DNA of 16,397 bases. Source: Nitrospirae bacterium CG2_30_53_67 (GTDB lineage: Bacteria > CG2-30-53-67). Where the stretch lies: assembly GCA_001873285.1 (NCBI GenBank), contig MNYV01000138.1, positions 1 through 16,397 on the forward strand, written 5' to 3'. A model generated the notes under the pieces. It saw only the letters and a program-made list of their open reading frames with translations. It did not search any database and had not been told where the DNA came from. Both the position numbers and the translations under genes were made by a program. Shown here piece by piece: positions 1-16,397 of the stretch (positions are counted from its first letter, which is position 1; every line of letters starts with the position of its first letter).

Positions 1-138
1 CGTACCGAGAGTGCCGTAGGGCGGTCTTATCAAGGCGCGCGACTGAGGTGTACCCCCTGTGGTACGCCGCAAGGAGCGGAACGCTGAGGAGACCGCCCTA
101 CGGCACTCGAATGCGACCGTATTTACGAATAGGACCAC
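1..138 (+). mobile_element. MITE-like palindromic element, copy A (left end outside window)
   Basis: This is the right-hand 138 bases of an element seen in full at 16148-16310; by hand alignment the two differ at about nine positions and have the same length over this stretch. It ends in CCAC after the inverted-repeat sequence TATTTACGAATAGGA, followed by TAA (139-141) and G, so the flank reads as half of a CTAAG target. Internally, 9-27 is perfectly complementary to 90-108 (19 bp). A smaller hairpin at the tip pairs GTACC with GGTAC, so the whole element can fold back on itself. It has no credible coding capacity. The left terminal repeat, about 25 bases, lies before position 1. It sits just beyond the 3' end of the minus-strand gene at 183-833. 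Confidence 0.8.
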
Positions 139-3236: not shown

Positions 3237-3417
3237 AGGGTCAGGGTCCAAGGGGTCAAGGGTTCCATGGTTACGCTTCGCGTGCCCCGCTTTTCTCTAT
3301 CTTTGCCGTCTGCGACGGCTACTACACTGAGGTATCTTGGGGTCAAGTGAAATGCTCAATGATCAAGTCGTTAGAACACAGACACTCGGACCCTTGAATC
3401 CTGGAACCCTCGAACCC
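3237..3417. repeat. Opposed octamer repeat arms in the gap before hom (array 1)
   Basis: G-rich 8-base units (GGGTCCAA 3244-3251, GGGGTCAA 3252-3259, GGGTTCCA 3260-3267, and another GGGGTCAA at 3339-3346) face C-rich units of the complementary type (TCGGACCC 3386-3393, TTGAATCC 3394-3401, TGGAACCC 3402-3409, TCGAACCC 3410-3417). The two arms could pair. The intervening part is not repetitive but holds a small perfect hairpin at 3305-3319 (GCCGTC-TGC-GACGGC) without a T-run. No open reading frame here is credible. Confidence 0.75.
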
Positions 3418-3485
3418 TTTGTGCCGTAGTAAGCGGGAGAGCAGTCTTTTTTGACTGATTTTTCAATGCCGCAGAGGATGAAGTG

Positions 3486-4869: not shown

Positions 4870-5931
4870 GTGACGACGTGGCGAGGAATCATTGAGGAGT
4901 ATCGAGAGTTTCTTCCAGTAACGGACAAGACGCCGGTCGTGACCCTTCTCGAAGGGAACACCCCTTTGGTTCGGACGAAACGTCTGGCGGAGGCGATTCA
5001 TCCGGACCTCGCGATCTATTTGAAGTTTGAGGGGGCCAATCCTACGGGCTCCTTCAAGGACCGGGGCATGGCCATGGCGATTTCCAAGGCCGTGGAGCAG
5101 GGATCCAAAGCCGTGATCTGCGCCTCCACAGGCAACACCTCGGCCTCGGCGGCGGCCTATGCCGCGCGGGTCGGGATCCGGGCCTTTGTCCTGATCCCGG
5201 AGGGGAAGATCGCCTTAGGTAAACTCGCCCAGGCCATGATGCACGGGGCCAGGGTGCTTCAGGTCAAAGGGAATTTTGATCAGGCCTTGAAGATCGTCCG
5301 GGAGGTTTCGGATAGGTATCCGGTCACGCTGGTCAACTCCATCAATCCGTACCGGATCGAGGGACAGACCACGGCCGCATACGAGGTCTGCGACCGGCTG
5401 GAACGCGCGCCGGATTTCCATGCCCTCCCTGTGGGGAACGCGGGAAACATCACGGCCTACTGGAAAGGATACAGGCGTTACAAGGACGCGGGGAAGATTG
5501 ACCGCCTGCCGAGGATGATCGGATTCCAGGCCGCAGGGGCCGCGCCCATCGTCCTCGGACATCCGGTTGAAAAACCTGAGACCGTGGCCACGGCCATTCG
5601 GATCGGGAACCCTGCATCCTGGAAATATGCGGAAGAGGCGGCCAGGGATTCCGGGGGGAAGATTGATATGGTGACCGATGAAGAGATCCTGGGGGCGTAC
5701 CGGATGATCGCCTCGCTTGAGGGGGTCTTCTGTGAGCCGGCCTCAGCCGCCTCGGTGGCCGGTGTGATCAAGCGGAGCGAAGCCGGCGGATTTCAGGAGG
5801 GGGACACCATCGTCTGCACCCTGACCGGGCACGGCCTCAAGGACCCGGATACGGCGATCTCGGTTTCGGAAAAACCGGTCACGGTCCACGCGGACCTGGA
5901 TGAGGTGATACGAGCCCTCGGATATAAATAA
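4870..5931 (+). CDS. thrC: Threonine synthase
   Basis: A PLP enzyme of fold type II that converts O-phospho-L-homoserine to threonine and phosphate. The 353-residue length and sequence are those of the shorter, Bacillus-type threonine synthases rather than the longer E. coli type. The PLP lysine is Lys63 in [22 protein letters not shown] (86-98) and the phosphate-binding PVGNAGN (187-193) are intact, and the late [10 protein letters not shown] segment is also typical. The start is GTG 4870, supported by GAGGAG at 4855-4860, nine bases upstream. The next gene, the proposed homoserine kinase, would supply the substrate, and hom upstream the precursor; a GHMP-type thrB is absent from the window. 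Confidence 0.95.
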
Positions 5932-6109
5932 GGGTTCAAGGATTCGAGGGGCCAAGGGGTCGAGGGTTTAAAGGTTCAAGAGTTTAAAGGTTTAAGGGTT
6001 TAAGGGTTTAAAGGTTTAAGGGTTGATGTTTTCACTTGACCCCTTGACCCCTTGAACCCTTGACCCCTTGAACCCTTGACCCCTTGACCCCTTGACCCCT
6101 TGAACCCTT
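5932..6109. repeat. Large inverted octamer array (array 3), about 178 bases
   Basis: Left arm: eleven consecutive 8-base units of the type RGGTTYAA (for example GGGTTCAA 5932-5939 and GGGTTTAA 5996-6003 and 6004-6011), all in register to 6019. Right arm: nine consecutive units TTGACCCC or TTGAACCC, in exact register from 6036 to 6107. The right-arm unit is the reverse complement of the left-arm unit, so the two arms face each other across a loop containing GATGTTTTCAC (6025-6035). The left arm is more diverged and more AT-rich than the right. It fills the gap between thrC and the proposed homoserine kinase gene, starting at the thrC stop codon. Confidence 0.9.
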
Positions 6110-6147
6110 CTGTCCCACTACATGTGGGTTAAAACGGAATTTCTAAT

Positions 6148-7359
6148 ATGGCGGCAAATAAACCGAATCATATGAGGTATATTGTTCTGTTGGGCGATGG
6201 GATGGCGGATCTCCCGATTCCTGAATTGGGAGGGAAGACCCCCTTGCAGGCGGCGAACACCTCGAATATGGACCGGCTCGCCCGAGGGGGCGAGATCGGC
6301 CTGGTCAAGACGATTCCGGATGGTTTTCTCCCGGGGAGCGACGTGGCGAACTTAGCGGTTTTCGGCTATGACCCTGCAAAATATTTTACCGGCCGGGCGC
6401 CCCTGGAGGCTGCAAGCATGGGGGTGGATCTCGGTCCGGACGATGTGGCCTTCCGGTGCAATCTGGTGACCATCGAGGATGCGGTCATGGTTGATTTCAG
6501 CGCGGGGCACATCAGCAGTGAGGAGGCCGCTGTTCTGATCCGGGATATCAACCAGGCCCTGTCGGATGACCGGGTCTCGTTCCATCCGGGTGTGAGTTAC
6601 CGCCATCTCATGGTCTGGAGGAAGGGGAAGTCCGCCACCCTCTGCACGCCTCCGCATGACATCACCGGCAGGCCGATATCGGATTATCTTCCGTTCCAGG
6701 ACGGATCTGAAATGCTCAAGGATCTCATGCTCCGTTCCCAGAACCTGTTAAAAGACCATCCGGTGAACCGCAAGCGGGGAGAAGCGGGGAAACGCCCCGC
6801 CAATTCCATCTGGCTATGGGGACAGGGGAGGCGGCCGAGCCTGCCCGCATTTAAGGAAAAGTACGGTCTCAGCGGTTCGGTGATCTCTGCCGTGGACCTG
6901 GTCAAGGGGATCGGGATCTATGCGGGACTGAAACCAATCCGGGTTCCAGGGGCCACCGGGTATCTGGATACCAATTACCGGGGCAAGGCTTTGGCGGCCG
7001 TTAAGGCCCTTGAGAACGGCTCGTTTGTCTATCTCCACGTGGAGGCGCCGGATGAAGCAGGCCACATGGGAAACATAGAGGAGAAGGTCAGGGCCATTGA
7101 AGCGTTCGATGAGCAGGTGGTCGGGACGGTGCTTTCGGGTTTGCAGAAGTTCGATTCATTCAGGGTCCTCCTGCTGCCGGATCATCCCACGCCGATCTCG
7201 ATCCGGACGCACAGCAGAGAGATGTCTCCTTACGTGATCTATGACAGCCGGAAGGTCAAGGAGACCGGACAGGTCTACGATGAGATCTCTGCGAGGCAAT
7301 CCGGCCGGGTGGTCAATCCCGGTTACCAGATCATGGACCGGCTGATCAGGGGAGATTAG
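6148..7359 (+). CDS. Proposed homoserine kinase of the cofactor-independent phosphoglycerate mutase (ApgM) superfamily
   Basis: A 403-residue alkaline-phosphatase-fold protein related to archaeal-type 2,3-bisphosphoglycerate-independent phosphoglycerate mutase. Visible metal and catalytic residues are Asp17 (LLGDGMAD), the nucleophile-type Ser64 (PGSDVANLAVFGYDP), Asp302 and His306 (EAPDEAGHMG), Asp345-His346 (LLPDHPTP) and His355. The DHPTPI..RTHS ending is the form found in the subfamily annotated as proposed homoserine kinase (TIGR02535), which occurs beside threonine genes in genomes without thrB. Its place between thrC and lysC supports phosphorylation of homoserine over a glycolytic role; this is inference from context. 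The start is uncertain: ATG 6148 has only a weak site, and ATG 6172 (MRYIVLLGDGMAD) would also preserve the fold. Confidence 0.88.
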   Translation: MAANKPNHMRYIVLLGDGMADLPIPELGGKTPLQAANTSNMDRLARGGEIGLVKTIPDGFLPGSDVANLAVFGYDPAKYFTGRAPLEAASMGVDLGPDDVAFRCNLVTIEDAVMVDFSAGHISSEEAAVLIRDINQALSDDRVSFHPGVSYRHLMVWRKGKSATLCTPPHDITGRPISDYLPFQDGSEMLKDLMLRSQNLLKDHPVNRKRGEAGKRPANSIWLWGQGRRPSLPAFKEKYGLSGSVISAVDLVKGIGIYAGLKPIRVPGATGYLDTNYRGKALAAVKALENGSFVYLHVEAPDEAGHMGNIEEKVRAIEAFDEQVVGTVLSGLQKFDSFRVLLLPDHPTPISIRTHSREMSPYVIYDSRKVKETGQVYDEISARQSGRVVNPGYQIMDRLIRGD

Positions 7360-7392
7360 ATCATTATTTTTCGATCATCTCCAAAAGAGTGG

Positions 7393-7521
7393 GTGAAAAC
7401 ATCAGGGGTCAAGGGGTCAAGGATTCCAGGGGTCAAGTGAAGTGCTGAAAACATAAGGGGCCGAGGGGTAAAGGGGTCGAGTGAACTACTCAAACCCTTG
7501 AACCCTGGAACCCTTGAACCC
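7393..7521. repeat. Opposed octamer repeat arms before lysC (array 4)
   Basis: GTGAAAACATC (7393-7403) is followed by GGGGTCAA twice (7405-7420), GGATTCCA and GGGGTCAA (7421-7436). After a 20-base spacer come GGGGCCGA, GGGGTAAA and GGGGTCGA (7457-7480). Opposed units TTGAACCC, TGGAACCC and TTGAACCC lie at 7498-7521. The spacer again contains TGAAAACAT, and the 11-base GTGAAAACATC is the exact reverse complement of the loop of array 3. The rest of the gap to lysC (7522-7594) shows no clear promoter. Confidence 0.8.
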
Positions 7522-7594
7522 ACAAAATGGGAGAAGGATCAGAAACTATTATGTTGTCAAGAGTAACAACCTGTCCGCATAATGAAAGGTTTTT

Positions 7595-8845: not shown

Positions 8846-8873
8846 AAGAAGCTTCAAGACCGGGTGAAGACGA

Positions 8874-8905
8874 ACGAACCCTTGAACCCTGAAACCCTTT
8901 TGACC
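8874..8905 (+). repeat. Short C-rich octamer array before cimA (array 5)
   Basis: Consecutive units ACGAACCC, TTGAACCC and TGAAACCC (8874-8897), then the partial TTTTGACC, match the right-arm units of arrays 1, 3 and 4. No facing G-rich arm is present here. The array can be read in frame with cimA from an ATG at 8864, which would give a false N-terminal extension. Confidence 0.65.
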
Positions 8906-8929
8906 ACTGCAACGGAGGGAAAACCAGAC

Positions 8930-14212: not shown

Positions 14213-14241
14213 TTTATACCGCTTTGCCGTGAGGTGACTTA

Positions 14242-14423
14242 GTGCCCCTATTCGTAAATACGGTGGCATTCGAGCGCCGTAGGGCGGGCTCCTCGGCGTT
14301 ACGCTCCTTGCGGTGTGCCAGAGGGGTACGCCTCAGTCGCGTGCCTTGATGAGACCACCCTACGACCCTCTACCGGTAAACGAGTACAAGTCGGTACGTC
14401 ACCCTATTTACGAACAGGACCAC
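14242..14423 (-). mobile_element. MITE-like palindromic element, copy B (inverted, 182 bp)
   Basis: Reverse-orientation copy of the 163-bp element. Left end GTGCCCCTATTCGTAAATA and right end TATTTACGAACAGGACCAC form the terminal inverted repeats. TTA is present on both sides (14239-14241 and 14424-14426), within CTTA...TTAG, consistent with duplication of the TTA of a CTTAG target. It carries about 19 extra bases near 14371-14390 (ACCGGTAAACGAGTACAAG) relative to copy C, which accounts for the length difference. It fills much of the 337-base gap between the histidine kinase and protease genes; no gene is visible in that gap. Confidence 0.85.
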
Positions 14424-14450
14424 TTAGATCCGCCTGTCATCAAAAAAGAG

Positions 14451-16076: not shown

Positions 16077-16082
16077 TAAACG

Positions 16083-16124
16083 GTTCACCCCGTTAGAGGC
16101 CTTAAGGCCTCTAACGGGGTGAAC
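16083..16124. terminator. Perfect 42-base palindrome after the protease gene, probable terminator
   Basis: From GTTCACCCCGTTAGAGGCC to its exact reverse complement, with TTAA at the centre: 21 + 21 bases without a mismatch, starting 7 bases after the stop codon at 16076. In RNA it would form a very stable stem of about 19 pairs. No clear T-run follows on the plus strand, so it may act as a processing or stability hairpin, or as a bidirectional terminator shared with the converging minus-strand gene, rather than as a classic intrinsic terminator. Confidence 0.55.
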
Positions 16125-16147
16125 TTGAGTGAGACCTTCCATACTTA

Positions 16148-16310
16148 GTGGTCCTGTTCGTAAATATGGTAACGTACCGAGAGGGTCGTAGGGTGGTCTC
16201 ATCAAGGCGCGCGACTGAGGTGTACCCACTGTGGTACGCCGCAAGGAGCGGAACGCAGATGAGGCCGCCCTACGGCACTCGAATGCGACCGTATTTACGA
16301 ATAGGGCCAC
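16148..16310 (+). mobile_element. MITE-like palindromic element, copy C (complete, 163 bp)
   Basis: The reference copy of the family. The left end GTGGTCCTGTTCGTAAATA and the right end TATTTACGAATAGGGCCAC are inverted repeats with two mismatches in 19. TTA flanks both sides (16145-16147 and 16311-16313) in the context C-TTA...TTA-G, so the empty site would have been CTTAG. Inner arms pair as well (GTCGTAGGGTGGTCTCATC against the complement of the segment ending near 16278), and the tip folds as GTACC-CACTGT-GGTAC. It has no transposase and no credible reading frame. A three-base TNA/TWA duplication is characteristic of some IS5-family groups and of the related PIF/Harbinger and Tourist elements. 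Confidence 0.87.
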
Positions 16311-16397
16311 TTAGTCGGAAATTTTGGGTATGATTTTCGGCTTGTATCCCAGGATGGGGTCAATCACAGGCGCATAGCCGGCAGGAACCGGGAAGGG
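16311..16397 (-). CDS. C-terminal end of an unidentified protein (partial, gene continues beyond the window)
   Basis: Read on the minus strand, 28 codons run open from the window edge to a TAA at 16313-16311. The peptide, PFPVPAGYAPVIDPILGY followed by a Lys/Ile/Pro-rich end, is proline-rich and not recognised. The stop codon is the same TTA that forms the right-hand target duplication of mobile element C, so the element sits exactly at the end of this gene. A stretch this short could be open by chance; the transcription direction converging on the protease gene and its palindrome is compatible with a real gene. Confidence 0.4.
   Translation of the reverse strand, partial: PFPVPAGYAPVIDPILGYKPKIIPKISD

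Follow-up and report, generated by a model that had tools for sequence, protein, structure and literature searches.

Short near-palindromic repeats at CTWAG sites in the candidate phylum CG2-30-53-67: a family of bacterial MITEs

The TNA groups of IS5 use a 3-bp target of the TNA type, and the MITEs derived from the IS427, IS1031 and ISL2 groups share with the repeat family described here a 3-bp duplication of this kind, short imperfect inverted repeats and a bacterial host. For this family, however, neither an IS with matching ends nor a DDE_Tnp_1_2 transposase was found, and a core that is near-palindromic over its full length is not what a simple derivative by internal deletion usually shows. 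A 3-bp duplication is also the target type of PIF/Harbinger transposons (PMC2213677). The Tourist-type MITEs of this group in eukaryotes are alike in their short non-coding form, terminal inverted repeats, 3-bp duplication (typically TTA or TAA) and very high copy number, but the present family has a bacterial host, other ends and no DDE_Tnp_4 match in six genomes.

The Correia/nemis repeats of Neisseria and RUP of the pneumococcus are similar in size (~100–160 bp), in number (dozens to more than 100 copies) and in possessing inverted repeats and duplications. RUP, for instance, measures 107 bp and occurs in 108 copies, and most of these classical bacterial MITEs have 5'-TA-3' termini (PMC2229807), whereas in the present family a 3-bp TWA duplication lies within CTWAG and copies often sit on stop codons. 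The Acinetobacter element MITEAba12 is also short and uniform in length, but its duplications measure 9 bp and its partner, ISAba12, is known; target duplications were reported for 40% of its 90 copies (PMC6382973). No earlier description of the family was found in the open-access literature searched.

Copies in the window and in the genome

The window, the whole stretch of 16,397 nucleotides that was analysed, is contig 138 of a 2.36-Mb draft MAG in 183 contigs (G000, the own genome). It belongs to CG2-30-53-67, where its relatives also place it; this lineage is treated as a candidate phylum of deep groundwater (PMC10591310). A sequence-only reading of the window had placed three copies of the repeat at 1–138, 14242–14423 (inverted) and 16148–16310, with TTA on both sides of copies B and C in a CTTAG context and CTAAG at the only visible end of copy A. 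All of this is confirmed: the three copies align with each other across their lengths, and the flanks read as described. The features are as follows.

1–138, forward strand: copy A, cut by the contig edge, equal to element positions 26–163; right flank TAAG, CTAAG context
14239–14241, no strand: left-hand TTA of the target duplication around copy B, within CTTAG (flank reading)
14242–14423, reverse strand: copy B, 182 bp long and in the opposite orientation to copy C, with an extra stretch of ~20 bp (alignment and end pairing)
14424–14426, no strand: right-hand TTA of the target duplication around copy B (flank reading)
16145–16147, no strand: left-hand TTA of the target duplication around copy C (flank reading)
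16148–16310, forward strand: copy C, the complete 163-bp element, near-palindromic, with G...C termini (alignment, fold and end pairing)
16148–16170, forward strand: terminal inverted repeat at the left end of copy C, GTGGTCCTGTTCGTAAATA... (inverted-repeat finding and end pattern)
16288–16310, reverse strand: terminal inverted repeat at the right end of copy C, GTGGCCCTATTCGTAAATA... in the inward direction (inverted-repeat finding and end pattern)
16311–16313, no strand: right-hand TTA of the target duplication around copy C (flank reading)

The region of copy A (1–143, C138) is 93% identical to 16173–16315 over 143 nt. The terminal inverted repeats are present as first read, although the 19 bases assigned to them were too few: in copy C the repeat extends over 28 bp at 86% complementarity with the flank counted in (16143–16170 with 16288–16315). 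Copy C folds strongly on itself (z = -7.3, with 0 of 200 shuffles as good, over the whole 171-nt stretch), and the fold of copy B is weaker (z = -2.65). A search of the window with Rfam 15 gave no match above the gathering score. An apparent second identical locus, C112:17243, was rejected, since its flanks match those of copy C on the opposite strand, which indicates a contig-end overlap and a single locus.

The window also contains a separate type of intergenic repeat, namely arrays of an 8-bp unit, CTTGACCC / CAAGGGGT, at 5929–6125, 7402–7531, 3241–3427 and 8873–8907, which occur in both orientations and in some cases make long inverted repeats. A palindrome of ~40 bp, GTTCACCCCGTTAGAGGCCTTAAGGCCTCTAACGGGGTGAAC, lies at ~16082–16126 between an htrA-like gene and copy C and has the look of a terminator-type hairpin.

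In the 2.36-Mb genome the 20-bp end of the element gives 86 forward and 84 reverse matches with at most 3 mismatches, and the reversed control pattern gives none on either strand. The 170 end matches against 0 for the control correspond to ~85 copies, a number slightly inflated by contig-end overlaps, and agree with the many genomic copies predicted from the window. Ends were paired in 1.26 Mb of the genome, a sample skewed toward contigs with matches, yielding 64 non-redundant copies with both ends. A perfect 3-bp flanking duplication is present in 46 of them, 23 with TTA and 23 with TAA and no other, and a preceding C together with a following G, which makes up the CTTAG/CTAAG context, in 47 of 64. 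As the middle base (W) is the same within a copy and varies between copies, the duplication is one of 3 bp and not of TA, and a TA-only duplication of the IS630-like type was rejected. The other 18 of the 64 copies, most of them one base off, and 24 unpaired ends in the same 1.26 Mb, several of them at contig edges, suggest that many copies are old.

The length is 161–163 bp in 45 of the 64 copies, with a second cluster at 181–189 bp and outliers from 60 to 225 bp; across the whole family size variants run from 46 to ~285 bp, plus one of 445 bp, around the typical 161–163 bp. Small indels among the copies argue against coding. Pairs of ends 225–3000 bp apart are missing from the 1.26 Mb, which indicates that this half of the genome lacks an autonomous version. 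The copies are placed in non-coding DNA at a median distance of 49 bp from the 3' end of a neighbouring gene, and tandem, convergent and divergent gene intervals all hold them alike. Direct-tandem copies with only a trinucleotide such as TAA between them occur at L252:7147–7256 and 7260–7422, at L098:1047–1213 and at L082; they can be understood if the CTWAG rebuilt at the end of an element acts as a fresh target.

Stop codons and empty sites

The 1.26 Mb contain 422 free CTWAG sites, 231 in predicted genes, 171 intergenic and 20 on stop codons, while 15 of the 64 copies sit on the stop codon of a gene (rplP, rpsT, rnc, pyrD, dnaN and others). Stop-codon sites are thus occupied in 15 of 35 cases versus 46 of 217 for intergenic sites (Fisher p = 0.01), and far above sites within genes (2 occupied); these counts are approximate because the gene calls were simple, and the 46 intergenic and 2 coding occupied sites were assigned by hand. 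The host genes are complete as judged by NCBIfam profiles: L16 is covered to 126/126, S20 to 84/84, RNase III to 219/219, DnaN to 366/367, PyrD to 301/304 and NrdJ to 606/606.

The survival of the stop codon follows from the sequence of the target and of the element. The target holds TAA or TAG, TWA is duplicated and the first base of the element, G, completes TAG; with a G at the start and a C at the end of the element, both junctions re-form CTWAG and a TAA or TAG stop in the target is restored. Copies can therefore lie within operons and directly behind the stop codon of a gene that remains intact, at a distance of zero bp, even where that gene is essential. On the simplest account of the mechanism, a transposase supplied in trans would bind the ~19–30-bp ends (GTGGYCCTRTTCGTAAATA...) and excise or copy the element by cut-and-paste or copy-out of the DDE type. 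The element would then be joined at a staggered cut, C^TWA^G, giving the 3-bp TWA duplication, and its G...C termini would rebuild CTWAG at both junctions and with it any stop codon in the target.

Empty sites are found in relatives, as the sequence-only reading had expected of a mobile element. The genome G001, from the same genus and ~80% identical to the own genome, was compared at 5 loci, and at all 5 it aligns to both flanks of the own-genome copy but lacks the element; most of these sites are not base-exact, since intergenic DNA has diverged at ~80% identity. In G001 the gap between rplP and rpmC is 0 bp, the rplP stop TAA being followed by the rpmC ATG (...TATAA/ATGAAAGC), and in the own genome the full element occupies the same junction (...GCATAG/TGGCCC...GGACCACTTAG/ATGAAAGC). 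The dnaN gene of the own genome is followed immediately after its stop codon by an element, whereas five relatives have no element at this stop codon and essentially the same protein length (~372 aa). One insertion is apparently common to the own genome and G001, truncated in the former (L010 vs L125). The empty orthologous sites indicate that the element is dispensable.

It is tentatively proposed that stop codons serve as a safe harbour, at gene ends and at zero-gap operon junctions such as rplP/rpmC where both proteins are left unchanged. As part of the same, rather speculative proposal, the AGGA/AGGG-bearing ends could provide the next gene with a ribosome-binding site, and the driver would be a transposase from a family for which this target has so far not been described.

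Distribution and the search for a transposase

The element is present in all six species examined of its own bacterial family; in the five other species the best copies show 87–95% identity and the rest are lower. The named relatives are MAGs, for example 'uncultured Nitrospirae bacterium FCS_M_CG2-30-53-67_02' and Hainich-H32-bin143. Outside the family the element was found in 0 of 92 genomes, apart from a 54-bp stretch that matches the inner hairpin but has no ends (L065:1501–1554 in G064), which may be an independent palindromic repeat with a common core. A Desulfobacteraceae MAG contains three complete elements of 160–162 bp with the same ends and a different palindromic core, two of them with a perfect TTA duplication, and the common ends suggest that the transposase probably crossed phyla. 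Three copies closely resembling those of the window occur in a Deltaproteobacteria MAG from CG_2015-17, which may be due to mis-binning. Plasmids and phages searched by blastn, and viral contigs searched with the patterns of the ends and the core, gave nothing convincing, and thus no sign of carriage by phage or plasmid. A Prevotella match to the end pattern (L110) was rejected, as it has no second end or core and several chance matches are expected at the size of the collection.

Longer and shorter versions also occur. Copies of ~263–268 bp, lengthened by an additional palindrome (GCCGCC...GGCGGC and GCGAAGG...CCTTCGC), are found in two genera (L092, L153, L104, L156 and L085, in G002 and G005). 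Minimal copies consist of the two ends joined directly, as a 46-bp palindrome at L121:4410–4455 in G001 and a 27-bp palindrome near 1519 of L321 in Desulfosarcina, with the TTA or TAA flanks kept in both.

The sequence-only reading had attributed movement to a transposase of the IS5 or PIF/Harbinger kind encoded elsewhere in the genome. The type of target fits, a 3-bp TWA duplication within the palindromic CTWAG. However, neither DDE_Tnp_1_2 (PF13586) nor the Harbinger-type DDE_Tnp_4 (PF13359) has a match in the six genomes of the family. A search of nine genomes did find DDE_Tnp_1 (PF01609) genes, but none of these carries the ends of the element, the three of the own genome having other ends. 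The full-length IS with matching ends that this attribution called for did not turn up in the 1.26 Mb or around the DDE_Tnp_1 genes found. No end motifs lie near any transposase match, no autonomous partner was found in the 1.26 Mb of this draft MAG, and the regions inward of the unpaired ends yielded no common sequence. The transposase may have been lost, may be unassembled or may lie outside the families searched. A driver of the IS5 type (IS427/IS1031/ISL2-like) or of the PIF/Harbinger type, which would refine the explanation by transposition in trans, not replace it, is given about even chances.

Nature of the repeat

The repeat has the hallmarks of a MITE in its terminal inverted repeats, its target duplication, its short multicopy form without a transposase gene and the empty sites in relatives. 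A different picture is seen in the sister genus, where most of the sampled copies of G002 and G004 have long conserved flanks and form part of a larger palindromic repeat with inverted-repeat ends AGCCCGGATATTGCATGAG. Loci at which the MITE lies mid-way in this repeat are L107, L118, L122, L197, L062, L070, L076, L193, L198 and L088. Were it general, this arrangement would make the 163-bp repeat a mere piece of a larger unit, but in the own genome and in G001 each copy has flanks of its own, with the 3-bp duplication directly next to the element, and the outer end AGCCCGGATATTGCATGAG occurs only once in the 1.26 Mb of the own genome. The duplications directly at the ends of the element refute this reading for the own genome, where the element itself has moved, and in general it is very improbable; the larger conserved unit that would have spoken against a mobile element is confined to G002 and G004. 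The larger repeat is probably a second MITE family, and the nesting is most readily explained if the element once inserted, long ago, into the centre of another MITE and the composite then spread.

A functional structured RNA or DNA element, such as a 3'-UTR hairpin, an mRNA stabiliser or an attenuator, held by selection near gene ends and mobile only incidentally, would account for the strong fold of copy C and for the non-coding placement close to the 3' ends of genes. It would also agree with compensatory cells in excess of shuffled alignments (20 vs 7 expected among 18 diverse copies, and 33 vs 6 among 86 copies), counts that are inflated by the relatedness of the copies. Against it, the orthologous genes of G001 do without the element, copies are spread over tandem, convergent and divergent intervals alike and the target duplications are left unexplained, so that this explanation appears unlikely, although a structural role of the element is possible, its pairing being kept somewhat beyond shuffles. 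Palindromic, intergenic repeats in many copies are likewise known as REP/BIME-type elements moved by RAYT (Y1) transposases. Such movement is not known to make a target duplication, and with a perfect 3-bp duplication in 46 of 64 copies this origin is scarcely credible.

The repeat is therefore, with high confidence, a family of mobile non-autonomous DNA transposons (MITEs) moved in trans at CTWAG with a 3-bp TWA duplication, and the non-autonomous element proposed from the window is upheld by the 46 of 64 TWA duplications, the terminal inverted repeats and the empty sites. Copies, ends, duplications, empty orthologous sites and intact host genes are observed directly; the DDE chemistry, the action in trans and the staggered cut are what these observations suggest.

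This is a genuine new MITE family of a kind that is already known, and it adds such a family from a barely known candidate-phylum lineage. Its occupation of about one tenth of the rare CTWAG sites in half of the genome is taken as a sign of activity. The fragmentation of these assemblies may partly stem from the copies, as several contigs end at or near them. The placement on stop codons offers a simple, testable reason why compact genomes can bear such an element at high density, and even within ribosomal operons.
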